Positions 11,061 to 58,313 of a stretch of DNA of 64,000 bases are shown piece after piece. Source of the stretch: Halomarina litorea (GTDB lineage: Archaea; Halobacteriota; Halobacteria; Halobacteriales; Haloarculaceae); the NCBI RefSeq assembly GCF_024227715.1, contig NZ_CP100448.1, forward strand, positions 868,001-932,000, given 5' to 3'. The stretch's first letter is position 1. Every line of letters starts with the position of its first letter. The position numbers and the translations under genes are program-made. The notes beneath the pieces are model-generated. The model was not told the DNA's origin and searched no databases. It saw only the letters and a program-made list of their open reading frames with translations.

Positions 11061-11066
11061 TATAAG
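11061..11066 (+). promoter_or_regulatory. TATA box of MCO1
   Basis: TATAAG is centred 25-26 nt before the GTG at 11089, the spacing expected for a leaderless haloarchaeal transcript. The surrounding 60 bp are unusually AT-rich for this genome. An octamer AATTACAT sits at 11037-11044, 17 nt upstream of the box, and recurs upstream of MCO2. Confidence 0.7.
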
Positions 11067-11088: not shown

Positions 11089-14000
11089 GTGAGTAACGAC
11101 GAGTACGTCCCCGACGGTGGGGACCGGACTGCGAGTGGAACAACGTACGGCCGTCGACCCTTCCTGAAGGGTGCGGGGACGCTGGCCGCCGCGGGCGCGT
11201 TCTTGGGTGGTTTCGTCACCGAGGGCGGCGCGACGACTGCGGCCGACGCGCAGGTCCCGGACCGGACGCCCGACAGGACCTACGACGTCAGCGCCATCAG
11301 CCTGAACATCCCGTTCAGTCAGACCGGCCTGCACCAGCCCAACGGCGCGATGTTCGTCCTCGACGAGAACAAGGAGGACGTCCGCGCGGTCGAGGACCTC
11401 GAAGCGGGGAGCGACCCGCGGACCCGCCTCATCGAACCGCTGGTCGTCCGCGCGAACGAGGGCGAGGTCGTCGAGATTCGGCTGACGAACGAACTCGACC
11501 AGCACGTCTCGATGCACCAGACGGGCCTGCCCTACGACGTGCAGACGTCCGACGGGATGGCCGTCGGGTTCAACGAGGACACGACCGTCGCGCCCGGCGA
11601 GACCATCAGCTACCAGTGGCACGCCAACCGCCTCGGGACGTTCTTCTTCCACGACGGCGCGACGTCGCCGTACGACTCGATGCCGGACGGCAACCCCGGC
11701 AATATCAACGGCTTCGCCCGCGGCCTGTTCGGCGCGATGGTCGTCGAACCCGAGGAGGCCGAGTGGACCGACCCCCGAAACGGCGAGCCCCTGCCGAGCG
11801 GGACGCGCGCGAACATCCTCCTCGACGACGACGACGAGGCACAACCCGGCATCGACCACCGCGAGTTCGTCGTCTTCTACCACGACCCGCAGGGCGTGGT
11901 GACCGAAGACGGCGGGCACTTCAACTACCCGGGGACCGACGAGGAACAGCACGTCCACGGCATCAACTACCGGGCGGCGACGACCGGCGGGCGCTTCGAC
12001 GAGGACGACCCCGACCTGAAAGACGACGCCGACCCGGTGACGTTCTACAGTTCGTGGGTCCACGGCGACCCGGGCGGCGGCGACACCGTCTTCGAGGCGT
12101 ACACCGGCGACCCGACGAAGTTCGTCGCCGTCGGTGCCCAGCTAGAGGAGAACCACGTCCACCACATCCACGGTCACCGCTGGCAGGAGGGCCAGTTCCC
12201 GGAGGGTGGTGAGGAGACCGACACCATCGACGCCCAGACCATCGGTCCGGGCGCGACCTACGAGGCGTACCTGACGGCCGCCTACGGTGACGACAGCTCC
12301 TACCCCGACCGCGACTTCGAGGAGGCGTTCGACATCGGCGCCGGCGGCACCCACCAGGCCCCCGGCGATTACTTGTTCCACTGCCACCTCTTCCCGCACT
12401 ACGGCGAGGGGATGAACGCCATCTTCCGCGTCAACGACAAGGTGAAAGACGACCTCGTCGAACTCCCGAACAACCGGGCGGACGACGACGACGACGACAA
12501 CCTCTACCCGGCCGACTCGGACCGACCCAGCTGGCAGGAACTCGTCGGGACGACCATCGACGAGGAGGGCGAGGCACCCGCCAAACCCCCCGGACAGGGC
12601 CGCGAACCCACCGCCGAGGAGGAAGAGCACCTGACGCCGCTGGTCGACGGGGCGCCCTACGTCGACCCGTGCATCGAGGAGGAGGTCAAGCGGACCGTCG
12701 AGTACGAGACGGTCGCGCTGTTCTCGAACATCGTCTACAACGACTCGGGCGACCACGACCCCGACGGCCGCATCTTCATGGCCAAGTCCGCGAAGATAAC
12801 GGAGCACCGCGAGGACGGCGACGTGGTCGTCCTCGACCAGGACTACTCCGAGGACGTCCAGAAGGTGCGCGACGGGGAGATGAACCCCGAACCGCTCGTC
12901 CTGCGGGCGAACGTCGGTGACTGCATCGAGGTCACGCTGACGAACGAACTCCCCCAGGACGCCTCGCACCACATCCACTTCGTCTCCTACGACCCGCTCG
13001 GGTCGGACTCGACGATGGTCGGCTACAACTACGACAGCGGGACGGATCCCGGCGAGTCGCGCACCTACCGCTGGTTCGCCGACGAGGAGGGCACCATCTT
13101 CATGCACGACCACATGGTCGGCGTCGAGTTCGGCCAGCACGGGACGTTCTCGACGTTGCTCGTCGAACCGGAGGGGTCGGAGTGGCTCGACCCCTACTCC
13201 GGCGAACCGATGACCACGGGCGCGCAGGCGATGATCGACCCGCCCGAAGCCGAGGCGTTCCGCGAGCAAGCGCTCATCTACCACGACTTCGCGCCGCTGA
13301 AGGACCGCGACGGCAACTTCGTCAACAACAACCGCCAGCACGCCGAGAACGCGGGGGTCATGGCCATCAACTACCGGAACAGCCCGTACTTCCACCGCGA
13401 CGATGCGGACCCGGCGTACGTGTTCAGTTCCGCGCGCCACGGCGACCCGGAGACGCCCGTCCTCGAGGCCTACGACGGCGACCCCATCCGCATCCGCCTC
13501 GTACAGGGCGCCTGGGAGGAACAGCACAACTTCTCGATGCACGGCCTGCGCCTCGACCGCCAAGGGCTGACCGACGCGGGGTCGACGGCACAGATCATCG
13601 GCACCTCCGAGGCGTTCACCCTCGGGACCGTCGCCTCGCGCATCCCGCAGGACCTGAGCGAGAACGAGAACGACGAGGTGCTCACGGACCCGAACCTCGA
13701 CGTCCTCATGCAGGACACCGGCGGGCCGATGCCCAACCCGAACGGCCTGCCCGTCACCGACTTCCTGTACGGGTCGACCATCGACGAGGACCTCTGGACC
13801 GGCATGTGGGGCATCACCCGCGTGTGGGGCGACTCGGTCAGTCACCTCCAGCCGCTGCCCGGCAACGCCCCGCCGCCGGGGCGGATCACGGACCTCCAGC
13901 TCCGCCAGATGGGCCACCCGGCCCCATTCGCAGACTTCTCGAGGGCGCGCTACGGCCAGAAGGCGAAACTGTACTATGCCGAGGACGACGACAGGACGTT

Positions 14001-15789
14001 CCCGGCGGACAAGGACGCCCGGCAGAACAACAGCGTCGGACGGGTGCCCCCGAAGGCACCCAGCCCGGGGTGGCCGTGCGAGGACGACGTGCCCATCCGG
14101 ACGTACGACGTCTGTGCGCTCCGGACCGACATCCAGTACAACGAGTACGGCGACCACGACCCAGACGGCATCGTCTACGCCCTCGAGAGCGACGTCAACG
14201 CCATCAGGTACGGCGGGAAGAACCCCGAACCGCTCATCATCCGGGCCAACGAGGGCGACTGCATCGAGCTGACTCTCAAGAACCGCATCGAGCCCCCGGA
14301 GGACGACCACTTCCAGGCGGACCTCATCGTCGGGAAGCCCGAGACGGTCCTCGGCGAGGACCTGATGGACTTCTACGGTCCCGAGGGCCGCCTCGCGCGG
14401 TACGCCCACGGGACGACCGACGACGGCGTCGTCAGGCAGAACGTCAGCTGGATCGCGGACCGCGAGAAGCGCCGGTGCATCTCCTCCAGCGAGATCACGA
14501 CGGACCTCGAAGAACAGACCGCGTCGGTCGAGGTGACCATCGCCGAGGACTGCGAGGGGGAGATCGAACTCTCCTTCGCGATGTACCGCAAGCCCTCCGC
14601 GCCCGCGCAGTTCGACGCCGAGGCCCACCAGCACCTCGTCGACGCGGAGACGCGGACGCTCGGGCCGGGTACCCACACGTTCACCGTGGACCTGCCCGAA
14701 CCGACCCACCCCCTCCCGCGCGCCAACGCCCCGTGGGAGGAGTCGCTGCGGATGTCGATGCACCCCCACAAGCTGCGCTACGACGCACAGGGGAGCGACG
14801 GCGCGACGGTCGGGTTCAACTACGACCAGACGGTCGCGCCCGGCGAGGAGATCACCTACCGCTGGTACGCCGACGACGAGTTCGGCTCGCTCGTGCTCTG
14901 GGACATGGCCGACACCCGGAGCCACTGGCACCACGGCGCGTTCGGGAAGCTCATCGTCGAGCCCGAGGGCTCGGCGTACCTGAACCCGGAGACCGGCGGC
15001 AAACTCCGACAGGGGGCGGGCGACTCCGCGATGATCGTCTCCCCCGAGCGGACCTTCCGGGAGTTCGCGCTCCTGATGAGCGACGGGATGGACATCATCA
15101 ACCCCACCGGCGAGTGCGTCGTCCCCATCGGCGAGGAGGACCTCGTCGTCGAGGACGGCGGCGAAGACGGCGGGGAACTCGGTGAGGAAGTCGAGGACGG
15201 CGAGGGAATCAACGTCGTCAACGACCAGGAGGACCCCGACGGAGGGGACGGTGACGAACACGGGCAGGGTCACCCCAACCACCAGCCGTGCAACCAGATC
15301 GGCGACCCCGAGGACCACGGCTACGTGGCGACGAACTACCGCTCGGAGCCATTCCGCTACCGCCTCGAGGACGACGACCGCATCCACAAGGTGTACAGCT
15401 CGGACGTCCACGGCGACCCAAACACCCCGGTGTTCAAGGCGCTCCAGGGTGAGCCGGTCGTGTTCCGCGCGAGTCAGGCCGGGACGAAGGCCCGCGGCAT
15501 CTCGCTGCACCTCTCGGACCACCACTGGCCGCGCTACATGGATACGGAGAACCCGCCGGTCGTCGGCGTCGACGACCGGTTCATCCCCGGCCGCTCGATC
15601 GACCTCTACATCGAGGGCGGGGCCGGCGGGACCGCCAACAGCGCGGGCGACTTCCTCTACCGCGAGATGAAGGAGGACCGCCGGACGGAAGGCGGCCTCT
15701 GGGGCATCTTCCGCGTGCTCGTCGGCGGGTCGGATCCGACGGTCAAACCGCTCCCGGAGGACGTCGGCGCCTCCACCGCGGCCGACTGA
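11089..15789 (+). CDS. Giant six-cupredoxin multicopper oxidase, Tat-exported (MCO1)
   Basis: 1,566 residues from a leaderless GTG. A Tat signal (GRRPFLKGAGTLAAAGAFL, about 22-40) precedes three homologous two-domain modules starting near residues 64, 535 and 1002, each opening with a YDV/YETV-AL...IVYN-like strand. Copper ligands are visible: in domain 2, HVHHIHGH (356-363) and HCHLFPHYGEGM (431-442), giving T1 ligands His356, Cys432, His437 and Met442; in domain 3, HIH (628-630) and HDH (673-675). These make one complete T1 site plus a trinuclear cluster, but in permuted order. Domains 4-6 lack the HCH motif. An insertion of ~90 residues occurs in domain 5. Size and architecture recall bacterial MnxG/MofA Mn(II) oxidases; the substrate is inferred, not shown. 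Confidence 0.85.
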   Translation: MSNDEYVPDGGDRTASGTTYGRRPFLKGAGTLAAAGAFLGGFVTEGGATTAADAQVPDRTPDRTYDVSAISLNIPFSQTGLHQPNGAMFVLDENKEDVRAVEDLEAGSDPRTRLIEPLVVRANEGEVVEIRLTNELDQHVSMHQTGLPYDVQTSDGMAVGFNEDTTVAPGETISYQWHANRLGTFFFHDGATSPYDSMPDGNPGNINGFARGLFGAMVVEPEEAEWTDPRNGEPLPSGTRANILLDDDDEAQPGIDHREFVVFYHDPQGVVTEDGGHFNYPGTDEEQHVHGINYRAATTGGRFDEDDPDLKDDADPVTFYSSWVHGDPGGGDTVFEAYTGDPTKFVAVGAQLEENHVHHIHGHRWQEGQFPEGGEETDTIDAQTIGPGATYEAYLTAAYGDDSSYPDRDFEEAFDIGAGGTHQAPGDYLFHCHLFPHYGEGMNAIFRVNDKVKDDLVELPNNRADDDDDDNLYPADSDRPSWQELVGTTIDEEGEAPAKPPGQGREPTAEEEEHLTPLVDGAPYVDPCIEEEVKRTVEYETVALFSNIVYNDSGDHDPDGRIFMAKSAKITEHREDGDVVVLDQDYSEDVQKVRDGEMNPEPLVLRANVGDCIEVTLTNELPQDASHHIHFVSYDPLGSDSTMVGYNYDSGTDPGESRTYRWFADEEGTIFMHDHMVGVEFGQHGTFSTLLVEPEGSEWLDPYSGEPMTTGAQAMIDPPEAEAFREQALIYHDFAPLKDRDGNFVNNNRQHAENAGVMAINYRNSPYFHRDDADPAYVFSSARHGDPETPVLEAYDGDPIRIRLVQGAWEEQHNFSMHGLRLDRQGLTDAGSTAQIIGTSEAFTLGTVASRIPQDLSENENDEVLTDPNLDVLMQDTGGPMPNPNGLPVTDFLYGSTIDEDLWTGMWGITRVWGDSVSHLQPLPGNAPPPGRITDLQLRQMGHPAPFADFSRARYGQKAKLYYAEDDDRTFPADKDARQNNSVGRVPPKAPSPGWPCEDDVPIRTYDVCALRTDIQYNEYGDHDPDGIVYALESDVNAIRYGGKNPEPLIIRANEGDCIELTLKNRIEPPEDDHFQADLIVGKPETVLGEDLMDFYGPEGRLARYAHGTTDDGVVRQNVSWIADREKRRCISSSEITTDLEEQTASVEVTIAEDCEGEIELSFAMYRKPSAPAQFDAEAHQHLVDAETRTLGPGTHTFTVDLPEPTHPLPRANAPWEESLRMSMHPHKLRYDAQGSDGATVGFNYDQTVAPGEEITYRWYADDEFGSLVLWDMADTRSHWHHGAFGKLIVEPEGSAYLNPETGGKLRQGAGDSAMIVSPERTFREFALLMSDGMDIINPTGECVVPIGEEDLVVEDGGEDGGELGEEVEDGEGINVVNDQEDPDGGDGDEHGQGHPNHQPCNQIGDPEDHGYVATNYRSEPFRYRLEDDDRIHKVYSSDVHGDPNTPVFKALQGEPVVFRASQAGTKARGISLHLSDHHWPRYMDTENPPVVGVDDRFIPGRSIDLYIEGGAGGTANSAGDFLYREMKEDRRTEGGLWGIFRVLVGGSDPTVKPLPEDVGASTAAD

Positions 15790-31791: not shown

Positions 31792-33219
31792 TCACAGCGC
31801 GATGGCGTCGACGACGATGGCGAACAGGAGCGCGCCGAGGTAGGCGTTCGAGGCGTGGAACGCCCGGAACGCGGCGGCCTCGGTCCGTTCGCGGTGGAGG
31901 CGGACGACCATCCAGAGGAATACCGCCCCGAGGGAGACCGTCGTGACGGCGAACAGGGGGCCGAGACCGGTCAGGGCGGTCAGCGCCGTCGCCGCGAGCA
32001 GCGTCGCCGCGAGGTAGTAGAGGATGTGTTTCCGGGTGGCCGTCTCGCCGCGGACGACGGGCATCATGGGGAAGCCGCCGCGCTCGTAGTCGTCCTTGTA
32101 CGCCAGCGCGAGGTTGTAGAAGTGCGCGGGCGTCCAGAGGAAGATGACGCCGGCCAGTACGAGGCCGCCGAGACCGGTCCCGCCGGCGACGTCGCCCGTG
32201 ATCTCGCCTGTCACGGCCACCCAGCCGATGAGCGCCGGGAGCGCGCCCGCCGCCCCGCCGATGACGGTGTTCTGGACCGTGTTGGGCTTGAGCACGAGCG
32301 TGTAGATGACGCTGTAGAAGACGATGGCGACGAAGCCAAGCGCCGCCGCGAGCAGGTTCACCTGCAGGAAGATGGCGACGGCCGCGAGCGTCAGCATCCC
32401 GCCGAAGGTGAGCGCGTTCCGCACCGGCACCTGATGGGTCGCGAGGGGTCGGTCGCTCGTCCGCTGCATCTTCTGGTCGATGTCGCGTTCGAGGACGTGG
32501 TTGAACGTCCCGCTCGCGCCGATGGCGAGGATGCCGCCCGTGAGGGTGTAGACGATGGTGTCGAGGCGGAGGGCGGGGCCCGCCGCGAGCGCCATCCCCG
32601 CACTGGCGACGAGACAGAGCAGCCACATGAGTCGCGGCTTCATCAACTGGAAGTAGGCCCAGAGCGTCGTCTTCGCGCGCCCGGCGAACGTCGTCGGGCG
32701 CGTCGGGGCGGGTGATGGAGGGACCGGGTGGGAGTCGGTGTCGGAGTCCTCTGCAACCGGCGGCTCGTCGGTGTCGGCCACCGGATCGCGGTGGCCCGTC
32801 TCGGCTTCGAGTTGCCACGCCAGCGCGAGGGCGAGGGCGGTGAAGATGGCCGTCCCGACGAGCAGGTGTGCGCCGGAGAGCGGTGCGGGCGCGCCGGTGA
32901 CGGCGACGAACGCGCCGAGACCGACCTGTACGGGGTAGAGCAGGCCGGCGGTGAGGAGCGCGCCCTTCACGCGTCGGGAGGCGGCGGACCACCCCACGTA
33001 CGCGGTGACGACGCCGAGGAGGCCGACGAGGGCGGCGACGACCCGGTGGCCCGTCGCGATGGCCACCTTCGGGTCCGTGAGCGGGTCCGAACAGAGGGGC
33101 CACGAGGTACACGCCGTGACCGCCTCCGCGAGGGCCGTCGTCGCGCCCGCCACCACCAGCAGGTAGACGCCGAGCACGGTGGCCGCGAGCAGCGTAGTGA
33201 AGCGTGGTGTCCGGGACAC
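31792..33219 (-). CDS. ctaB: Fusion of a short heme A synthase (CtaA) domain with heme O synthase (CtaB)
   Basis: 475 residues from a GTG. Residues 1-160 hold four transmembrane helices with TGHRVVAALVG and SGAHLLVGTAIF, the two histidine helices of the short archaeal CtaA type, plus a cysteine pair TACTSWPLC. A charged Pro/Thr-rich linker (about 162-190) leads to the UbiA-type prenyltransferase: QLMKPRLMWL, then the Asp-rich NHVLERDIDQKMQRTSDRP, and the second motif YKDDYERGGFPMMP. The CtaB part farnesylates heme B to heme O; the CtaA part would oxidise heme O to heme A. Divergent from coxB. Confidence 0.9.
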   Translation of the reverse strand: MSRTPRFTTLLAATVLGVYLLVVAGATTALAEAVTACTSWPLCSDPLTDPKVAIATGHRVVAALVGLLGVVTAYVGWSAASRRVKGALLTAGLLYPVQVGLGAFVAVTGAPAPLSGAHLLVGTAIFTALALALAWQLEAETGHRDPVADTDEPPVAEDSDTDSHPVPPSPAPTRPTTFAGRAKTTLWAYFQLMKPRLMWLLCLVASAGMALAAGPALRLDTIVYTLTGGILAIGASGTFNHVLERDIDQKMQRTSDRPLATHQVPVRNALTFGGMLTLAAVAIFLQVNLLAAALGFVAIVFYSVIYTLVLKPNTVQNTVIGGAAGALPALIGWVAVTGEITGDVAGGTGLGGLVLAGVIFLWTPAHFYNLALAYKDDYERGGFPMMPVVRGETATRKHILYYLAATLLAATALTALTGLGPLFAVTTVSLGAVFLWMVVRLHRERTEAAAFRAFHASNAYLGALLFAIVVDAIAL

Positions 33220-33255
33220 GGGTAGTATCCGTACTCTGGTGTCTCCGCACGTAAA

Positions 33256-33274
33256 CCCCGCGCTTTTCGCGGGG
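33256..33274. repeat. Hairpin between divergent ctaB and coxB
   Basis: CCCCGCG (33256-33262) and CGCGGGG (33268-33274) pair around the loop CTTTT. It lies in the 107-bp divergent promoter region. Position suggests an operator or transcript structure; nothing else supports a specific role. Confidence 0.35.
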
Positions 33275-33296
33275 GTATCGGGCCGCAGTCAGCAGG

Positions 33297-33302
33297 TATT
33301 TA
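33297..33302 (+). promoter_or_regulatory. TATA box of coxB
   Basis: TATTTA is centred 27-28 nt before the ATG at 33327, as for a leaderless transcript. Confidence 0.6.
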
Positions 33303-33326
33303 CGTCGCACAATCGAACGCCGATTC

Positions 33327-34247
33327 ATGAGAAAGGCGCGGAAACTACTGGGGGCGTTCGCCGGTCTCGCGGTGCTGGCTCTCTTCGTCGAACCCGCGGC
33401 CGCCCAGTCGTCCGTCAACGAGGAACTCATCTTCGGGCTGAACCGGAAGCTGATGTACGTGGCGGTGCCCATCACGGTGCTCGTCGAGGGCATCCTCATC
33501 TACACCGTCTACCGGTTCCGTAACGCCGAGGAAGCACAGCCGACCCGCGAGAACCGTCGGCTGGAGATCACGTGGACCGTCGCGACGGCCATCATCCTGC
33601 TGTTCGTCGGCCTCGCGTCCTACCAGGTGCTCGGGAGCGCGTTCATCGGCGGCGCGACCGCCACCAGCGGCGAGGACGTCAGTTCGGGCGAGGAACTGAT
33701 GCCGCTCGTCCACAACTACCCCGGCGCACAGGCACCGACGGAACAGAACGCCGTGCAGGTCGACGTCGAGGCCCGCAAGTACGTCTGGACGTTCACCCAC
33801 GAGAACAACGCCACGGCGACCGGGACGCTCGTGATACCGGCCAACACGCCCGTCTACCTCCACATCACGTCGGTCGACTGGCTCCACGCGTTCCACGCGC
33901 CCGACCTGGCGCTGAAGCAGGACGCTTTCCCCGGCCAGTACAACACCATCAAGACCGAGGTGTACGAGACCGGCACGTACCAGCTCTACTGTGCGGAGTA
34001 CTGTGGCGTCGGCCACTCCGGCATGCTCGGCACCATCAAGGTCGTCTCGCAGGAGGAGTACCAGCAGTACTTAGAGGAGAACGCCCCCGACGCGGGCGGC
34101 AACAGCTCCGGTAACGCCTCCGCGAACGGTTCGGGTAACGCCTCGGGCAACGCTTCCGGTAACGCCTCCGGCAACGCCTCGGGCAACGCTTCCGGTAACG
34201 CCTCCGGCAACGCGACGAACGCCTCCAGCGTCGCCGTCGCGGCCTGA
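33327..34247 (+). CDS. coxB: Cytochrome c oxidase subunit II with sequon-repeat tail
   Basis: 306 residues. A signal peptide ends near AAAQ (about 24-27), then two transmembrane helices (around 38-60 and 78-100). The C-terminal cupredoxin carries the CuA site: His in WLHAFHAPDL, and CAEYCGVGHSGM with two Cys, His and Met. After residue ~255 the protein ends in a linker made of NAS/NSS/NGS/NAT triplets, 11 N-glycosylation sequons in about 45 residues. This tail would face the outside, where AglB-type glycosylation occurs. Subunit III is encoded 1 kb downstream on the other strand; subunit I is not in the window. Confidence 0.93.
   Translation: MRKARKLLGAFAGLAVLALFVEPAAAQSSVNEELIFGLNRKLMYVAVPITVLVEGILIYTVYRFRNAEEAQPTRENRRLEITWTVATAIILLFVGLASYQVLGSAFIGGATATSGEDVSSGEELMPLVHNYPGAQAPTEQNAVQVDVEARKYVWTFTHENNATATGTLVIPANTPVYLHITSVDWLHAFHAPDLALKQDAFPGQYNTIKTEVYETGTYQLYCAEYCGVGHSGMLGTIKVVSQEEYQQYLEENAPDAGGNSSGNASANGSGNASGNASGNASGNASGNASGNASGNATNASSVAVAA
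34140..34211 (+). repeat. Exact 36-bp tandem duplication in the coxB tail
   Basis: Positions 34140-34175 and 34176-34211 are identical, 36 bp each (12 codons, three N-A-S-G units per copy). Synonymous Asn/Gly codons alternate within the unit, so identity of the copies points to a recent duplication, and in-frame length change by slippage is likely. Confidence 0.85.
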
Positions 34248-34290
34248 ACGTACCACTCACTTACTGTTTTCACGAATCCCCAGCGACGGC

Positions 34291-35217
34291 TCAGCCCCGC
34301 CGCAGTCGCTCGCACTCCCCCTCGGTGACGACGACCCCTCCGTCGTCCGTCTCGACCACCAGACCGCCCGTCTCGTCCAGTTCGCGGGCCACGCCCACCA
34401 CCGGGTCCGCGCCGTCGCGGTGGACGACCACCCGCTCCCCGAGGGTGGCCGCGGCCTCGGTCCACTCCTCGCGCAGTGCCGCGTAGCCCGCTTCCGTCTC
34501 GGCCTCGCCCGCGCGCGCGAGCAGGTTGGCGTGCAGTTCGCGGGCCACCGCCGTCCGGTCGACCGGTCCGACCGCCGCGCGCATCGTCGTGACCGGGCGG
34601 TCCGTGGCGAGGGCCGACGGGTCGAGGTCCGCGTTGATGCCAACGCCGACCACGACGAACTGGAGGGTCGCCGGCCCGTCCAGTACGTCGCTCACCGCCT
34701 TGCCCGCGACGGGCACGTCGTCGGCGACCCGTTCGACGAGAACGCCCGCCAGTTTCGCGGGACGAGGGTCGTCCCCGACGGCCGACTCCCCACCACCGAT
34801 CGCCGCTCCTGATGGAACGACGACAGCATCAGACTGCGTCTGATTGGCCGTCGCTCCTGATGGAACGACGACGTCGTTCGGCCACTTCAGCGCCGCGTCC
34901 ACGCCGAAGGCGCGCACGGTGTCGAGGACGGCGAGGCCACTGGCGAGGGTGAGTCGGCCCGCCGTCTCCGCGTCCAGTTCGGGCCGGAGGAGCACGCTCG
35001 ACCAGACGCCGCCGGGGGGCGCGCTCCAGTCGTTGCCGGTGCGGCCCACCGCGGCGGTCAGCGCCTCCGCGACGGCGAACGTCCCGTGTGGCGCGCCCGA
35101 GAAGCCCCGGCGGCGCACCCAGTCGGTCGTGTTGGGCACCTCGCCGAAGACACGGACGGGGGCGTCGATGGCGGCGAGGCGGTCCTCGTCGAAGGTCACG
35201 GTCGGAGTCCGAGTCAA
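34291..35217 (-). CDS. birA: Biotin-[acetyl-CoA-carboxylase] ligase (BirA) without HTH
   Basis: 308 residues. FGEVPNTTDWV opens the catalytic domain; GGVWSSVLLRP replaces the bacterial GRGR loop region; KWPNDVVV and KLAGVLVE are the biotinoyl-AMP site. The C-terminal SH3-like domain (about 255-305) is present. The DNA-binding domain of bacterial BirA is absent, so it is a ligase only. Between KWPNDVV and KLAGVLVE there is an unusual insertion with two copies of VVVPSGA, caused by a 21-bp direct repeat. It sits between two cox genes, convergent with coxB. Confidence 0.92.
   Translation of the reverse strand: MTRTPTVTFDEDRLAAIDAPVRVFGEVPNTTDWVRRRGFSGAPHGTFAVAEALTAAVGRTGNDWSAPPGGVWSSVLLRPELDAETAGRLTLASGLAVLDTVRAFGVDAALKWPNDVVVPSGATANQTQSDAVVVPSGAAIGGGESAVGDDPRPAKLAGVLVERVADDVPVAGKAVSDVLDGPATLQFVVVGVGINADLDPSALATDRPVTTMRAAVGPVDRTAVARELHANLLARAGEAETEAGYAALREEWTEAAATLGERVVVHRDGADPVVGVARELDETGGLVVETDDGGVVVTEGECERLRRG
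34804..34872 (-). repeat. 21-bp direct repeat inside birA
   Basis: The same 21 bases occur at 34804-34824 and 34852-34872, 48 bp apart, so the reading frame is kept. They encode a repeated VVVPSGA in the BirA insertion. The 27 bp between them contain CAGACTGCGTCTG, an imperfect palindrome. Confidence 0.8.
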
Positions 35218-35300
35218 TGGTCAATCAGCGTTCCGCCGCGCGCGAGCGCGGCCGCTGGTCGGGCGAGGAGAAAGAACGAACGGAGGAGTGAGTCGCGCCG

Positions 35301-36161
35301 TCAGATGGTGACTTCCGCGCCGACGTACAGCACGACGACGAGGAACAGCCAGACGGCGTCGACGAAGTGCCAGTACATCGAGACGGTCGACACCGAGGTG
35401 TGACGGTCGGCGGAGTACTGGCCGAACAGCGCCCGGATGAGGACGATGCTGATGAGCACCGCGCCGAGGGTGACGTGCAGGCCGTGCAGGCCCGTCAGGC
35501 CGTAGAACGCCGACCCGAAGACGCCCTCGGTGAGGGTGAAGTGCTCGTGGACGATGAACTCGTAGTACTCGTAGACCTGCCCGCCGATGAAGACGACGCC
35601 GAGGAGGAGCGTCACGACGAGCAAGCCGATGAACCGCGAACGGTTACCGGACAGCAGCGCGGTGTGCGCGTAGTGAAGCGTGAACGAACTCGCCACCAGC
35701 AGGGCGGTGTTGATGAGCACCAGCGAGCCCAGCAGGTGGGGCATCTCCGCACCCGTCGGGGGCCACGTGCCCGCGCGGATGAAGAAGAAGTAGACGAACC
35801 CGGCCCCGAAGGTGGAGAGTTCGGTCCCGAGGAACAGTATCATCGCCATCCTGAGCCGGCTGGAGCCGTGTTCGCTCGCCTCGCCCTCCCAGAAGTTGAC
35901 GATGAACGCGTGGTAGAGCCAGCCGTACAGTCCGGCGAGGAACACCACTGTCGAACCGATGAAGACGGCGGGACCGACGAGCGGCCCGACGAGTGCGCCA
36001 TCGCCCTGTCCGAGGAGGAACAGTGCGGCACCGATGTAGAAGCCTGCGCCGCCGATGGCCGTCACGAAGGGCCACCAGCTCGCCTCGCCGAAGCCGCGAG
36101 GCCAGTCCTCGACGGCGGGGAGGTGGTGCCCGCCGTGGTCTTCCGCTTCTTCTGTAGCCAT
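35301..36161 (-). CDS. coxC: Cytochrome c oxidase subunit III
   Basis: 286 residues, seven transmembrane helices. Characteristic segments: WPFVTAIGGAGFYIGAAL, the ELSTFGAGFVYFFFIRAGTWPP region of helix III with its Glu, and GLTGLHGLHVTLGAVLI followed by YWHFVDAVWLFLVVVLY, the closing helices of CoxC. A His/Glu-rich N-terminus (MATEEAEDHGGHH) precedes helix I. Start at 36161 fits this; the open frame upstream is not coding. Divergent from the next membrane protein. Confidence 0.94.
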   Translation of the reverse strand: MATEEAEDHGGHHLPAVEDWPRGFGEASWWPFVTAIGGAGFYIGAALFLLGQGDGALVGPLVGPAVFIGSTVVFLAGLYGWLYHAFIVNFWEGEASEHGSSRLRMAMILFLGTELSTFGAGFVYFFFIRAGTWPPTGAEMPHLLGSLVLINTALLVASSFTLHYAHTALLSGNRSRFIGLLVVTLLLGVVFIGGQVYEYYEFIVHEHFTLTEGVFGSAFYGLTGLHGLHVTLGAVLISIVLIRALFGQYSADRHTSVSTVSMYWHFVDAVWLFLVVVLYVGAEVTI

Positions 36162-36246
36162 AGGCTCGCTTGTGTGCCAGTCGTCAAAAACCCTCCCAAA
36201 GCCCGCGAGTCGGAAGGTACTCCTTCGGGGTGACCCTATCCCGACC

Positions 36247-37638
36247 ATGTACCGGAGGGTCGTCCGACGGCTCGGTTCGCGAGGGGTTCGCGCGTTCGCC
36301 CTCGCGTGCTGTCTGCTCGCCGTCGCGGCCGGCCCGGCGCTCGCTCACGGGGGCACCCTGCGGGGCAACCAGCAGGAACTCGCCATCCCGACGTGGCTCT
36401 TCCTCTCGACCGGCGGCGGGGCCGTCGGCGCGTCGTTCCTGCTGGCGAGTTTCGCCACCGACCGGGCGTTCGTCCGGTCGGTCCACCGCGCCCGCGACGC
36501 TCTCTCGCTGCCCGCGCGGGACCTGCTGGTCGCCGCCACCCGACTCGTGGGCGTCGTCGGCCTCCTCGCCGTCCTCGTCGTCGGCTGGGTCGGTCCCGTC
36601 GACCCGCTCCAGAACCTCGCCGTCCTCGTCGTCTGGGGCGGGTGGTGGGCCGGCTTCGCCATGACCACCTACCTCGTCGGGGACGCGTGGCCCGTCCTCA
36701 ACCCATGGCGTACCGTCGGCCGGTACCTCCCGAGCCTCGGCTACGACTACCCCGAGCGACTCGGCGCGTGGCCGAGCGTCGTCGGCCTCCTCCTGCTCAT
36801 CTGGGTGGAGGTGGTCAGCCCGCTGGCCGACGACCCGCGCCTGCTGACCGTCGTCGTCGCCGCCTACACCGTCGTCACCCTCGGGGGCGTTCTCGTCGTC
36901 GGCGAGGGCGTCTGGTTCCGCCGCGTCGACCCCGTCTCGCGCGTGTTCGCCTACTACGGCCGGGTCGCCCCCGTCTCCCGGACCGAGTCGGGCCTCGAAC
37001 TCCGCCTGCCCGGGTCGGCGCTCACCGAATCCCGCCTCGCCGTCGATTCGAGCGAGGTGGGATTCGTCGTCGCCCTCGTCTGGGTGACGACCTACGACGG
37101 CTTCGTCGCCACGCCCGTCTGGCGCACGCTCGTGACGCCGCTGGTCGAGGCGGGGCTTCCACCGGCGCTCCTCTACCCGCTGGCGCTCGTCGTCGGCTAC
37201 GTGCTGTTCCTCGGGGCGTTCCGCCTCGCCGCACGGAAGGGTCGGGAGTACGCCGAGTCCTACCTCGCGGCGGGCGAGATAGCCCGGCGGTTCGCCCCCT
37301 CGTTGCTCGCCATTGCGGCGGGCTACCACCTCGCGCACTACCTGGGGTACTTCCTCTCGCTGCTCCCGATGCTGGTCGGGGCGCTCCTCTCGCCGTTCTC
37401 GCCGCCGCCGCCGGAGTACCTCGTCCTGCCGGCGTGGGTGGGCGGCCTCGAACTGCTGTTCGTCCTCGTGGGCCACCTGCTGGCGATCTGGGTGGCCCAC
37501 GCGACGGCCTACGCCCTCTTTCCGGGCCGGATGCAGGCCATCCGGAGCCAGTACCCGCTCACCGCGGTGATGATCCTCTACACCATGACCAGTCTGCTCA
37601 TCGTCTCACAGCCCGCAATCGACCCGCCGTACCTCTGA
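36247..37638 (+). CDS. Polytopic membrane protein of the cox locus, function unknown
   Basis: 463 residues. N-terminal signal-like helix (LACCLLAVAAGPALAHGG) then about ten transmembrane helices with short loops. LNPWRTVGRYLPSLGYDYPE and HLAHYLGYFLSLLPML are the most distinctive stretches; the latter has two His flanking a helix start and could bind heme or metal. Part of a haloarchaeal family found beside oxidase genes. The zinc-finger protein starts 2 nt after its stop, so both form an operon. Function unknown; assembly of the oxidase is a guess from position. Confidence 0.72.
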   Translation: MYRRVVRRLGSRGVRAFALACCLLAVAAGPALAHGGTLRGNQQELAIPTWLFLSTGGGAVGASFLLASFATDRAFVRSVHRARDALSLPARDLLVAATRLVGVVGLLAVLVVGWVGPVDPLQNLAVLVVWGGWWAGFAMTTYLVGDAWPVLNPWRTVGRYLPSLGYDYPERLGAWPSVVGLLLLIWVEVVSPLADDPRLLTVVVAAYTVVTLGGVLVVGEGVWFRRVDPVSRVFAYYGRVAPVSRTESGLELRLPGSALTESRLAVDSSEVGFVVALVWVTTYDGFVATPVWRTLVTPLVEAGLPPALLYPLALVVGYVLFLGAFRLAARKGREYAESYLAAGEIARRFAPSLLAIAAGYHLAHYLGYFLSLLPMLVGALLSPFSPPPPEYLVLPAWVGGLELLFVLVGHLLAIWVAHATAYALFPGRMQAIRSQYPLTAVMILYTMTSLLIVSQPAIDPPYL

Positions 37639-53646: not shown

Positions 53647-56600
53647 CTAGTTCTGCCCCCTCCCGTTTCCGGGATTGCCGTTCCCCGGGTTGTCCTCCTG
53701 TCCCGGCGGACCGTCGCCGCCGGATCCACGCCCCGGGTTCTGCCACGCATCCACCGCCTGGACGGGGACGGTCGCCCGGACCGCCGAGTTCGTCGCTCCC
53801 CTGACGAACTCGGCGAGCGGTGTCTCCGGGGGGTTCTCCGCTATCTCGACCAGTCGGCCGTCGATGCCGATGCCGTACGTCCCGCTGTTGCCCTCGACGA
53901 ACACGAACGACTGGTTGGCGCGGGTCTGCACCGATATCCGCTGTCCGATGCGGTCGCCGGCGAGTTCGCTCGGTATCTGGAGGTCGGGGTCGAGCAAGTC
54001 GCGAACCTGCCCGGGCGGGGTGTCGAAGAAGACGTACACCGCACCCCCGTCTGGCGCGCCGAGGTCGCTGTCGGGGACGCCGACGATGGTGTCCGGTTGC
54101 GGCCCGCCCGTGACATTCGCCACGCGGACGACGTAACCGGGCCGGAAGACGAGCGGCGAGTCCTCGGGACTGCCACCGCCGCCGCCACCGCCGCCAGGTC
54201 GGCCTCGCGCCCTGTCGGGGAGTGGCTGGACCGGTTCGTCGAAGTCGTCGGGTTCCTCGCGGACGCGGAAGATACCCCAGAGACCGCCCTCCAGTCGCCG
54301 GACCTGCTTGGTCTCCTGGTAGACGTAGTCGCCGACGGAGTTCGTCGTGTTGCCCGCGCCCCCGACGAGGTCGTACGCGGCCGCCTTCCCGACGCTCAAC
54401 TGACTGTTGACCCCGGTGTCGGCGGAGACGGCGACACCCTGATACCGGGCCCACTGGTGGCCCGAGAGGTGGAACGCGATGGCTCGGCCTTTGTCCGCGG
54501 CCTGCCCGACCCGGAACGTCACCGGGTCGTCCAGGAGAGCGCGGAGGACGGGCGTCGCCGGGTCGCCGTGGACCTCGGAACTGTAGACGAGGTGGGGGTC
54601 GTCCGGTCCGTTCTCGAACCGACGGACGAACGGTTCGGCCCGGTAGTTGATGCCGAAGTACCCGTGGTCCTCGGAGTCACCGATCTGCGTACAGGGGCCG
54701 TCGTCGTCCTCCTCGCCGGGCGGGACGACGCAGTTCCGGTTCGGGCCGCCGTTGACGACGTACTGGCCGTCGGCGAACAGGAGGGCGTTCTCCCGGAAGT
54801 CCGGCAGCCGTCCCCCCCGGGGGTTCGTCACCATGCACTCGGGGTCGGTGGGTATCGGTTCGGCGGTGTCGTTCGTCAGTACGACCGACTCCTCCGGTTC
54901 GATGACGAGTTGTCCGAACGACCCGTGGTGTCGGTTGCTGCGCACGTCGGCGAAGTCCCAGAGGACGGTCGTTCCGAGGGGTTCGTCCGTGTACCAGCGG
55001 TAGGTGACGGTCTCTCCCCGGTCGGCCGTCTGGTCGTAGTTGAACCCGACCGTCGCGCCGTCAGAGCCGTTCACGTCGTAGGCGATGCGCTGGGGGTGCA
55101 GAGAGATGCGCTCGGACCGCTCCCACGGGCGCTCGATGCGCATCTCGGGGTCGGGGTGATTGTCGTTCAGGTTCTGCAGTTCGTTCGTCACCCGCACCTC
55201 GACGAGTTCGCCCTCGTTGGCGCGGATGGTCAGCGGGACGAGTTCTCGAACGCCGTTTCGGACCTGGTTCGCGTAGACGCTCGCGACGAACGCCACTCCG
55301 TGCGGGTCGCGGTCACCGTAGTCGTCGTAGCGAAGCTGCGTCGAGACCGCCGCCACATCGTAGACGCGGTCCGGTTCCCGGTCGTCGGGCGCCGGGTTCC
55401 CCGGACCGGGGTGAGCGGGCGGGACGTTACCGACGGCGCTGTTCTGCCGGGCGTCCCTGTCGGCCGGACGACTCGTGTCGTCCCCCGACCCGTACCGTAG
55501 CTTCGCCTCCTGGCCGAGGTCGGTCCAGTCGAGGTCCGAGTAGACGGCGGGGTGTCCCATCTCCCGGAGGTCGGTCTCGGAGATGGACCCGCCGGGGGAC
55601 GACCCCGGGAGCGACCGGAGGTGGTCCACCCGTTCGCCCCAGACGCGGACGAGACCCCACATGCCACACCAGAGGTCGTCGACGATGCTCGACCCGTAGC
55701 GGTAGTCGCGCACCGGCAGGCCGTCGGGGTTGTCGAGCTTGTCGAACGGGAACTGTTCCGACTCCGGCGGAACGGTGTACGTGAACGCCTCCGAGGTACC
55801 GATGACCTCACTGACGGAGTCCTGCGGGTCGAACCCCTCGGGGTCGATTCGAAGCCCGTGGAGCCCGAAGTTGTGCTGCTCCTCGTAGGCTCCCTGGAAC
55901 ACGCGGAACCGAATCGTGTCGTCCTCGTAGGCCTCGAGGACGGGGGTCTCGGGGTCGCCGTGGACCGCCGAACTGTGGACGTACGCCGGGTCGGGGTCGT
56001 TTCGGGTGTAGTACGGCGCGTTCCGGTAGTTGATGGCCATCGTCCCGGCGTTCTGGTTGTGCTCTCGGTCCTGATTGATGAACCGTCCCTGTCGGTCCCT
56101 GAGCTGGGCGAAATCGTGGAGGTGGAGGCACTGCTCGCGGAAGCTCTCCCCGCTCGGTGGGTCGATGATGGCCTGCGCGCCGCTGTACACCGGGTCGCCG
56201 GAGTAGGGGTCGCGCCACTCCGACCCCTCCGGTTCGACGATGAGGCCGGCGAACTGGCCGTGCATCACCTCCCCCAGCCCGACGATGTGGTCGTGGAAGA
56301 AGATGGTTCCCTCCTCGTCGGCGAACCAGCGATACTGGTTCCGCCCGCCGTTCGCGGCGGTCTCCTGGGTGTAGTTGTAGCCGGTCGCCAGCGAGTCGGA
56401 GCCGAGCAGGTCGTAGCCGACGAAGTGCTGGTGCATCGAGACGTCGTGGTCGAGTTCGTTCACGAGCGTGAACTCGATGCAGTCGCCGACGTTCGCCCTG
56501 ATGAACAGCGGTTCGGGATTCAGTTCGCCGTTCCTGACCGCCTCGGGGTCGGTCACCTGGTGGGTCTCGCCGTCGATCGTCGCCTCCTCCAGGATGTAGA

Positions 56601-58290
56601 ACTGCCCGTCCGGGTCGTGTTCGCCGGCGTCGTTGTAGACGATGTCGGTCGACATCGCCCGGAGCGTGTATTTGATGGTCCGATTGGCGTCGACACAGGG
56701 GTCGCTGTAGGGTGCCCCCGGGACGATGTCGCCGAGTGCCGCCCGCTCGGTCGGCGTCGGCCCCCGGGCGTCCTCCTCGGACGCCTCCCGTGCGCTCTCG
56801 GCTCCGGCGGCGATGGTGGGTTCGTCGAGCGCCGGTTCGTCCGGGGGGAGTCGCCCCCGCTCGCCGGGGACGAACTCCGGGAAGCCGAGCGGCGAGTCCG
56901 CCGCCAGGAGGTCCCCCGTGTTCGGTAGTTCGGCCAACCAGGGTCGCCGCTTGTCGTGGACCCGCATGAACCCCCACATCCCCTCGCCGTAGTGCGGGAA
57001 GAGGTGGCAGTGAAAGAGCACGTCGCCGGCGTTGCCGTGAACGTAGCCCGCGCCCACCTCGAAGGCCTGCGCGAACGTCATGTTCGGGCGGGTGCTGCCG
57101 GGCCCGTGGCCCGCGACGAGGTAGGACTCGAACGTCTCGCCCAGGCCGATGGTCTGGGCGTCGATGGTGTCTGCGCCCGTCCGGGGGACCTGTTTCCAGC
57201 GGTGGTTGTGGAGGTGGTGGACGTGGTTCTCCTCGCCGGAGGCGCTCGTGAACACGAACTTCACCGGGTCGCCCACGTAGGTCTCGTAGACGTTGTCGCC
57301 GCCGCCGGGGTCGCCGTTCGTCCACGAGTTGTAGAACCCCTTCTCGAGGTCGCAGTCCGCGCAGTCGTCGTTGACGCGCTGGCCGGTCGGGTCCGCACGG
57401 TAGTTGATGGCGTGGACCGTCTGCGGAGTGTCCGTTCCGGGCCAGGTGAGGTCGGGGGTGAGACCTTCCGGCGTGTGGTAGTGGATAACGAACTCCCGGT
57501 AGTGTGAGTCTCCAACCTGCGGCCCGATGGGGCCGTGGATGTCGGCGCGGACGCCGCTCCGAAGCGGGTCGCCGGTCTCGGGGTCGGTCCAGCTCGTGCC
57601 CGGCGGCTCGACGACGAGCATGCCGAACAGGCCCCGAGAGAGGAGGTTCGCCTCCTGGGGTGGCGCGTCGGCGGTGGCGACCGCCTGATTCGCGCCGTCG
57701 TAGAAGAACTTGCCGCCCTCGCTGACGGCCTGCCACCGATAGGTGACGGTCTCGCCCGGCTGAGCGACCGTACTCGGGTTGAACCCGACGGCCATCCCGT
57801 CGCTCCGCTCGACGTCGTAGGGCAGCGACGTCTGATGGATCGACGCCGGACGGTCGAGGTGGTTCGTGAAGGTGATTTCGACGGTCTGCCCGCGGTTCGC
57901 ACGGATCGTGAGCGGCTGGATGACCGAGGTGTCGACGCCCTCTCTCGGGTCCGTCCCGTCGATGAGCGAGAAGCCGTCGTCGGGCGTCACTCCCGATGCC
58001 TCCCGGACCGCGTCGAGGTTCTCCTCGAGGACGTACATCGCACCGTTGGGCTGGTGGAGGTCGAACGCGTTGTAGACGATGTCCACCTCGACGGCGTGGA
58101 CGTCGAACGACCTGACGTCGGATTGGTTGCTCGCCGCCGCCGTCTCCATCCCCGCTCCCGGCGCGGCCTCCCCGAGACCCATCAACAGCGACCCCGTCGA
58201 CAGCGCACCCGTCCCCTTGACGAACGTCCGGCGCCGGACGCCCCCTGCGTCGTTTCTCGTCTCCTCACCGTCGTCTCCTCCTCTTGACAT
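53647..58290 (-). CDS. Giant six-cupredoxin multicopper oxidase, Tat-exported (MCO2)
   Basis: 1,547 residues from the ATG at 58290 (a GTG 12 nt upstream is possible, but TATA spacing favours the ATG). Tat signal VRRRTFVKGTGALSTGSLLMG near residues 18-38. Three homologous modules start near 61, 536 and 973. Copper ligands: HVHHLHNH (356-363) and HCHLFPHYGEGM (427-438) in domain 2; HQH (620-622) and HDH (666-668) in domain 3; domains 4-6 lack HCH. After a Gly-rich linker (about 1363-1370) it carries a ~150-residue C-terminal extension not present in MCO1, ending in a Gly/Asn-rich tail. Paralogue of the gene at 11.1 kb; substrate unknown, Mn(II) or another metal ion conceivable. Confidence 0.85.
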   Translation of the reverse strand: MSRGGDDGEETRNDAGGVRRRTFVKGTGALSTGSLLMGLGEAAPGAGMETAAASNQSDVRSFDVHAVEVDIVYNAFDLHQPNGAMYVLEENLDAVREASGVTPDDGFSLIDGTDPREGVDTSVIQPLTIRANRGQTVEITFTNHLDRPASIHQTSLPYDVERSDGMAVGFNPSTVAQPGETVTYRWQAVSEGGKFFYDGANQAVATADAPPQEANLLSRGLFGMLVVEPPGTSWTDPETGDPLRSGVRADIHGPIGPQVGDSHYREFVIHYHTPEGLTPDLTWPGTDTPQTVHAINYRADPTGQRVNDDCADCDLEKGFYNSWTNGDPGGGDNVYETYVGDPVKFVFTSASGEENHVHHLHNHRWKQVPRTGADTIDAQTIGLGETFESYLVAGHGPGSTRPNMTFAQAFEVGAGYVHGNAGDVLFHCHLFPHYGEGMWGFMRVHDKRRPWLAELPNTGDLLAADSPLGFPEFVPGERGRLPPDEPALDEPTIAAGAESAREASEEDARGPTPTERAALGDIVPGAPYSDPCVDANRTIKYTLRAMSTDIVYNDAGEHDPDGQFYILEEATIDGETHQVTDPEAVRNGELNPEPLFIRANVGDCIEFTLVNELDHDVSMHQHFVGYDLLGSDSLATGYNYTQETAANGGRNQYRWFADEEGTIFFHDHIVGLGEVMHGQFAGLIVEPEGSEWRDPYSGDPVYSGAQAIIDPPSGESFREQCLHLHDFAQLRDRQGRFINQDREHNQNAGTMAINYRNAPYYTRNDPDPAYVHSSAVHGDPETPVLEAYEDDTIRFRVFQGAYEEQHNFGLHGLRIDPEGFDPQDSVSEVIGTSEAFTYTVPPESEQFPFDKLDNPDGLPVRDYRYGSSIVDDLWCGMWGLVRVWGERVDHLRSLPGSSPGGSISETDLREMGHPAVYSDLDWTDLGQEAKLRYGSGDDTSRPADRDARQNSAVGNVPPAHPGPGNPAPDDREPDRVYDVAAVSTQLRYDDYGDRDPHGVAFVASVYANQVRNGVRELVPLTIRANEGELVEVRVTNELQNLNDNHPDPEMRIERPWERSERISLHPQRIAYDVNGSDGATVGFNYDQTADRGETVTYRWYTDEPLGTTVLWDFADVRSNRHHGSFGQLVIEPEESVVLTNDTAEPIPTDPECMVTNPRGGRLPDFRENALLFADGQYVVNGGPNRNCVVPPGEEDDDGPCTQIGDSEDHGYFGINYRAEPFVRRFENGPDDPHLVYSSEVHGDPATPVLRALLDDPVTFRVGQAADKGRAIAFHLSGHQWARYQGVAVSADTGVNSQLSVGKAAAYDLVGGAGNTTNSVGDYVYQETKQVRRLEGGLWGIFRVREEPDDFDEPVQPLPDRARGRPGGGGGGGGSPEDSPLVFRPGYVVRVANVTGGPQPDTIVGVPDSDLGAPDGGAVYVFFDTPPGQVRDLLDPDLQIPSELAGDRIGQRISVQTRANQSFVFVEGNSGTYGIGIDGRLVEIAENPPETPLAEFVRGATNSAVRATVPVQAVDAWQNPGRGSGGDGPPGQEDNPGNGNPGNGRGQN

Positions 58291-58313
58291 ACCTCGACTC
58301 ACAGACTCCCCTG

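Follow-up and report, generated by a model that had tools for sequence, protein, structure and literature searches.

The window analysed here, a 64,000-nt stretch of the Halomarina litorea genome (GCF_024227715.1, NZ_CP100448.1, positions 868,001-932,000 of the forward strand), carries two genes for large multicopper oxidases, MCO1 and its paralogue MCO2. The features of both genes are listed below by position in the window and strand, with residues numbered along the MCO1 protein and the basis of each assignment in brackets.

11061..11066, + strand: TATA-like box TATAAG, 23-28 bases upstream of the MCO1 GTG (read from the sequence)
11089..15789, + strand: MCO1, a 1,566-aa six-domain MnxG-type multicopper oxidase (open reading frame, profile, structure and homology searches)
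11089..11253, + strand: N-terminal Tat-type signal region, with RRPFLKG at residues 22-28 (sequence)
11266..11763, + strand: domain 1, about residues 60-225, with a partial ligand set and an invariant H143 (profile, structure match, conservation)
11806..12444, + strand: domain 2, about residues 240-452, with the type 1 site and half of the trinuclear site (profile, alignment, structure match)
12154..12177, + strand: HVHHIHGH, residues 356-363, with H356 assigned to type 1 and H359 and H361 to the trinuclear site (alignment, 30/30)
12379..12414, + strand: HCHLFPHYGEGM, residues 431-442, with H431 and H433 assigned to the trinuclear site and C432, H437 and M442 to type 1 (alignment, 30/30)
12691..13188, + strand: domain 3, about residues 535-700, with the remaining half of the trinuclear site (profile, alignment, structure match)
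12970..12978, + strand: HIH, residues 628-630, trinuclear ligands (alignment to 9bxa H529 and H531, 30/30)
13105..13113, + strand: HDH, residues 673-675, trinuclear ligands (alignment to 9bxa H575 and H577, 30/30)
13231..13848, + strand: domain 4, about residues 715-920, without a complete copper set and with an invariant H813 (structure match, conservation)
14086..14973, + strand: domain 5, about residues 1000-1295, split by an insert (alignment, predicted model)
14317..14703, + strand: MCO1-specific insert of 129 residues (about 1077-1205) in domain 5 (alignment with relatives)
15046..15723, + strand: domain 6, about residues 1320-1545, without an HCH motif (motif comparison, predicted model)
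53647..58302, - strand: MCO2, a 1,551-aa paralogue of MCO1 with the four motifs in identical order and a C-terminal tail (sequence comparison, tree)

The MCO1 reading frame opens with GTG and is free of stops. We take it to be the coding frame because its GC3 is 0.94, 19% of its residues are acidic, and its product shares ~53% identity with MCO2 across most of its length and ~45-51% with haloarchaeal relatives from other genomes. The position of the TATA-like box suggests a leaderless transcript, on the pattern of typical haloarchaeal promoters. MCO1 is predicted to be exported by the Tat pathway, and twin-arginine N-termini are also seen in its relatives. Its signal region contains no lipobox cysteine. 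The Pfam TAT model gives E=0.45, outside its cutoff. The immediate neighbours of the gene are housekeeping-like, with an RsmB/F methyltransferase and a DUF7122/PUA protein upstream and a DUF790 protein downstream. Elsewhere in the window, positions 31792-36248 hold genes for cytochrome oxidase: COX2, COX3 and one whose product has CtaA-like as well as UbiA-like parts.

Multicopper oxidase domains are detected in MCO1 by Pfam. The four copper motifs that an earlier sequence-only reading had placed at residues 356-363, 431-442, 628-630 and 673-675 of 1,566 are all present, and from N to C terminus they run HxxHxH and HCH-x3-H in domain 2, followed by HxH and HxH in domain 3. Its further claim that domains 4-6 lack the ligands also holds, with no complete set found there or in domain 1. 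The predicted type 1 ligands are H356, C432, H437 and M442, and the predicted trinuclear ligands are H359, H361, H431, H433, H628, H630, H673 and H675. Every one of the 12 is the same residue in all 30 relatives that reach 1,200 residues, and the relatives that keep the full set include Bacillota and Nitrososphaeraceae. Since the ligand histidines, C432 and M442 are invariant in every one of these sequences, compared with 10% of columns overall across domains 1-4 of the set, the motifs are not a product of chance. Twelve of the 37 histidines within residues 60-950 are invariant in the 30 relatives; ten are predicted ligands and the other two are H143 (11515-11517, domain 1) and H813 (13525-13527, domain 4), which are conserved in 30 of 30 sequences outside the predicted active site. 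By motif comparison, H143 and H813 occupy positions at which a complete site would hold copper ligands, and they may have a structural role or bind another metal.

The only strong match to MCO1 among solved structures in the sequence search is MnxG (PDB 9bxa, E=6.8e-176), deposited as 'Structure of Mnx H340A complex from Bacillus sp. PL-12', against which the family profile scores 1,151 bits. This bears out the proposal that MCO1 is a giant multicopper oxidase related to MnxG, as all ligand positions are aligned. In domain 2, the residues of the first motif pair as H356-H281, H359-H284 and H361-H286, and those of the HCH motif as H431-H334, C432-C335, H433-H336, H437-A340 and M442-M345; in domain 3, the pairs are H628-H529, H630-H531, H673-H575 and H675-H577. 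A340 of 9bxa is an engineered residue, and therefore wild-type MnxG has the type 1 histidine. We accordingly rejected the reading that this histidine is missing from MnxG (HCHLYPA in 9bxa), as the deposited chain is the H340A variant and the MnxG proteins of two mnx operon loci (L091, L093) carry the histidine. A copper-free model of domains 1-4, built from 31 sequences and of moderate confidence (pLDDT 73, pTM 0.78), also finds 9bxa as its best match (TM 0.76 by query, rmsd 3.9, 921 alignment columns). Ceruloplasmin is the runner-up, well behind at TM 0.43-0.48. The model of domains 5-6, likewise copper-free and of moderate confidence (pLDDT 74), has 9bxa as its best match too, so that the six cupredoxin-like domains match this structure from end to end in both sequence and predicted fold. 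With the NCBIfam MnxG equivalog NF041487, MCO1 scores 178 bits, far below the cutoff of 3,100; this model probably describes the longer Pseudomonas-type MnxG, since it spans 1,894 positions.

In the homotrimer of two-domain laccases, each trinuclear cluster is shared by two neighbouring chains, domain 2 of one and domain 1 of the next. By analogy with this pattern and with the 9bxa match, the eight trinuclear histidines of MCO1 would converge at the junction of domains 2 and 3. In a six-domain chain, a laccase-like trinuclear site can sit at 1/6, 2/3 or 4/5. The sequence-only reading had seen in MCO1 an unusual permuted trinuclear site; the order of the motifs and their location in domains 2 and 3 are real, but their novelty is not, because this order is normal for MnxG-type six-domain oxidases, as reported in 2013 (PMC3600357). 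A type 1 site in domain 2 and a trinuclear site at 2/3 were described in all bacterial six-domain oxidases studied (Vasin et al. 2013, PMC3600357); green algae and archaea, two haloarchaea among them, were likewise reported to have the trinuclear site at 2/3 (PMC3600357). With the 9bxa alignment giving the same order, we rejected the idea that the copper motifs are newly permuted; MCO1 is a new, divergent member of the known MnxG-type six-domain family.

We consider it very probable that MCO1 combines the MnxG-type six-domain architecture with a multicopper oxidase mechanism. Its copper content, electron path and substrate are drawn here from the chemistry of the family. The type 1 copper in domain 2 would accept electrons singly; their extracellular donor would be a small reductant, for which a metal ion is the likeliest candidate. 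The His-Cys-His bridge H431-C432-H433 would relay the electrons to the domain 2/3 interface, where the trinuclear cluster would reduce O2 to water. Domains 1, 4, 5 and 6, which retain the fold but no full set of copper ligands, would serve as scaffold.

The family is patchily distributed. The gene was found in 24 of 392 sampled genomes of the host order (Halobacteriales), covering 15 of 95 genera, in 7 of 146 genomes of the host family (Haloarculaceae) and in 3 of 8 genomes of the host genus (Halomarina), and several genomes carry it twice or three times. Named genomes were also scanned by sequence pattern, a method that overlooks some members; relatives turned up in haloarchaea, Bacillota and Nitrososphaeraceae. 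Two MnxG-type loci belong to a single Nitrososphaeraceae MAG (L087, L089) and keep the same 12 ligands. Relatives at four loci (L081, L060, L087, L094) are broken into two open frames, possibly through frameshifts or assembly errors. Rooted on the MnxG proteins of two mnx operons, a tree built by a quick method groups the haloarchaeal members in a single clade; Nitrososphaeraceae branch next to it, followed by proteins of the Neobacillus type. MCO2 falls inside a well-supported haloarchaeal group and carries a tail (VGVPDSDLG..) common to many relatives and absent from MCO1. The end branch of MCO1, whose placement is unsure, is the longest in the tree set (0.73, where the median is 0.13), and its function may therefore have shifted.

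The insert in domain 5 was found in none of the relatives of MCO1. Sequences related to the insert itself (family f5) occur in 13 of 195 haloarchaeal genomes, the host genome included, often several per genome, and a second, secreted-looking protein of the host genome (L097) carries a homologue of the insert at its C-terminus. Because related copies recur in these genomes and in this second protein, the insert looks like a movable domain. The long branch, the private insert and the missing tail, together with the presence of the family in only 3 of 8 genomes of the genus, are what might be expected if MCO1 were a copper-free or decaying remnant that retains the fold only; we regard this as very improbable, given the stop-free frame and the retention of all ligands despite ~50% overall divergence.

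The MnxG family is known for Mn(II) oxidation, and Mn(II) oxidation by MCO1 is plausible by analogy. As a leading guess, Mn(II) heads the order of substrates, with Fe(II) and Cu(I) close behind and phenols less likely; as the main physiological substrate, Mn(II) falls just short of being probable. Gene partners bear on this choice. In Bacillus, one MnxG associates with an E3F3 hexamer of MnxE and MnxF (PMC5622069). At L091 and L093, the genes just upstream of mnxG are taken to be mnxE and mnxF from their size and position. Searches of the window and the haloarchaeal loci yielded no MnxE or MnxF homologue, with sensitivity limited by the shortness of these proteins, and searches of the host genome, of similarly limited sensitivity and run without a positive control genome, yielded none either. 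If MnxEFG is defined strictly by its partner genes, MCO1 falls outside it, as the partners were found beside mnxG only at L091 and L093. A conserved operon shared with the haloarchaeal members was considered and rejected, as the widely shared gene clusters consist of the oxidase itself and shadow frames inside it. No neighbour recurs beside most haloarchaeal members among the loci compared; CHRD-domain and histidine-kinase-like neighbours are each shared by no more than a minority of the loci. Downstream of the Neobacillus-type oxidases (L078-L080, L088, L090, L092) lies a conserved large secreted-looking protein of ~620-750 aa, which at L079 contains a PKD-like domain.

The same architecture might instead have Fe(II) or Cu(I) as its natural substrate, making MCO1 an extracellular metal-detoxifying or iron-handling oxidase, which we consider possible if doubtful. 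Consistent with such a role, algal Fox1-type ferroxidases also have their trinuclear site at 2/3 (PMC3600357), MnxE and MnxF homologues were not found in the searched loci or the host genome, and genes read as CopC/CopD-like copper genes lie upstream of the Neobacillus-type oxidases in several loci. However, among solved structures the closest relative is MnxG, which oxidises Mn(II), and not a ferroxidase, and no metal-transport gene recurs next to the haloarchaeal members. That MCO1 is a laccase-like enzyme of broad specificity, with phenols or other organic compounds as substrates, is improbable: domains 1-3 are locally similar to two-domain laccases, but this match (E ~1e-11) is far weaker than that to MnxG (1e-176). 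Returning to Mn(II), a wider proposal would be that haloarchaea possess self-sufficient extracellular MnxG-type Mn(II) oxidases that work without MnxE and MnxF, and that archaea thereby deposit Mn oxides by enzyme action in hypersaline settings, which we regard as rather unlikely.

Our literature search for experiments on haloarchaeal MnxG or haloarchaeal Mn oxidation found no direct report. Which substrate the haloarchaeal branch acts on, apparently in the absence of MnxE and MnxF, is a testable question. A haloarchaeon that carries both MCO1 and MCO2 offers a direct test case both for enzymatic Mn oxide formation in archaea and for MnxG-type function in the absence of these partners. If the substrate proves to be Fe(II) or Cu(I), annotations of Mn oxidation based on family membership would mislead.

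Among known systems, ceruloplasmin and hephaestin resemble MCO1 in having six cupredoxin domains in one chain. Their trinuclear site lies between domains 1 and 6 and not 2 and 3 (PMC3600357), whereas domains 1 and 6 of MCO1 lack complete motifs. Two-domain laccases share a trinuclear site between C-type and N-type cupredoxin domains, but there the interface joins separate chains of the homotrimer, while in MCO1, with six domains in one chain rather than two domains in a trimer, it lies inside the chain. The Neobacillus-type MnxG-like oxidases have the same motifs, no MnxE/F homologue nearby and ~38-39% identity to MCO1. Two haloarchaeal six-domain multicopper proteins, Hlac_1576 of Halorubrum lacusprofundi and Htur_3146 of Haloterrigena turkmenica, were reported as MnxG homologues in the set with the trinuclear site at 2/3 (Vasin et al. 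2013, PMC3600357). They have the same lengths as the proteins at L040 (1,525 aa) and L056 (1,476 aa), to which they may correspond; MCO1 is distinguished by its private insert and by lacking the tail. MnxG of Bacillus sp. PL-12 shares with MCO1 the six cupredoxin domains, the motif order, the 12 ligand positions and the domain 2/3 location, although identity by structure alignment is only ~30% and MCO1 is ~340 residues longer, with a Tat-type signal and the domain 5 insert. With six cupredoxin domains, predicted trinuclear ligands split between domains 2 and 3, and a predicted type 1 site in domain 2, MCO1 belongs to the MnxG-type family in its broad sense.
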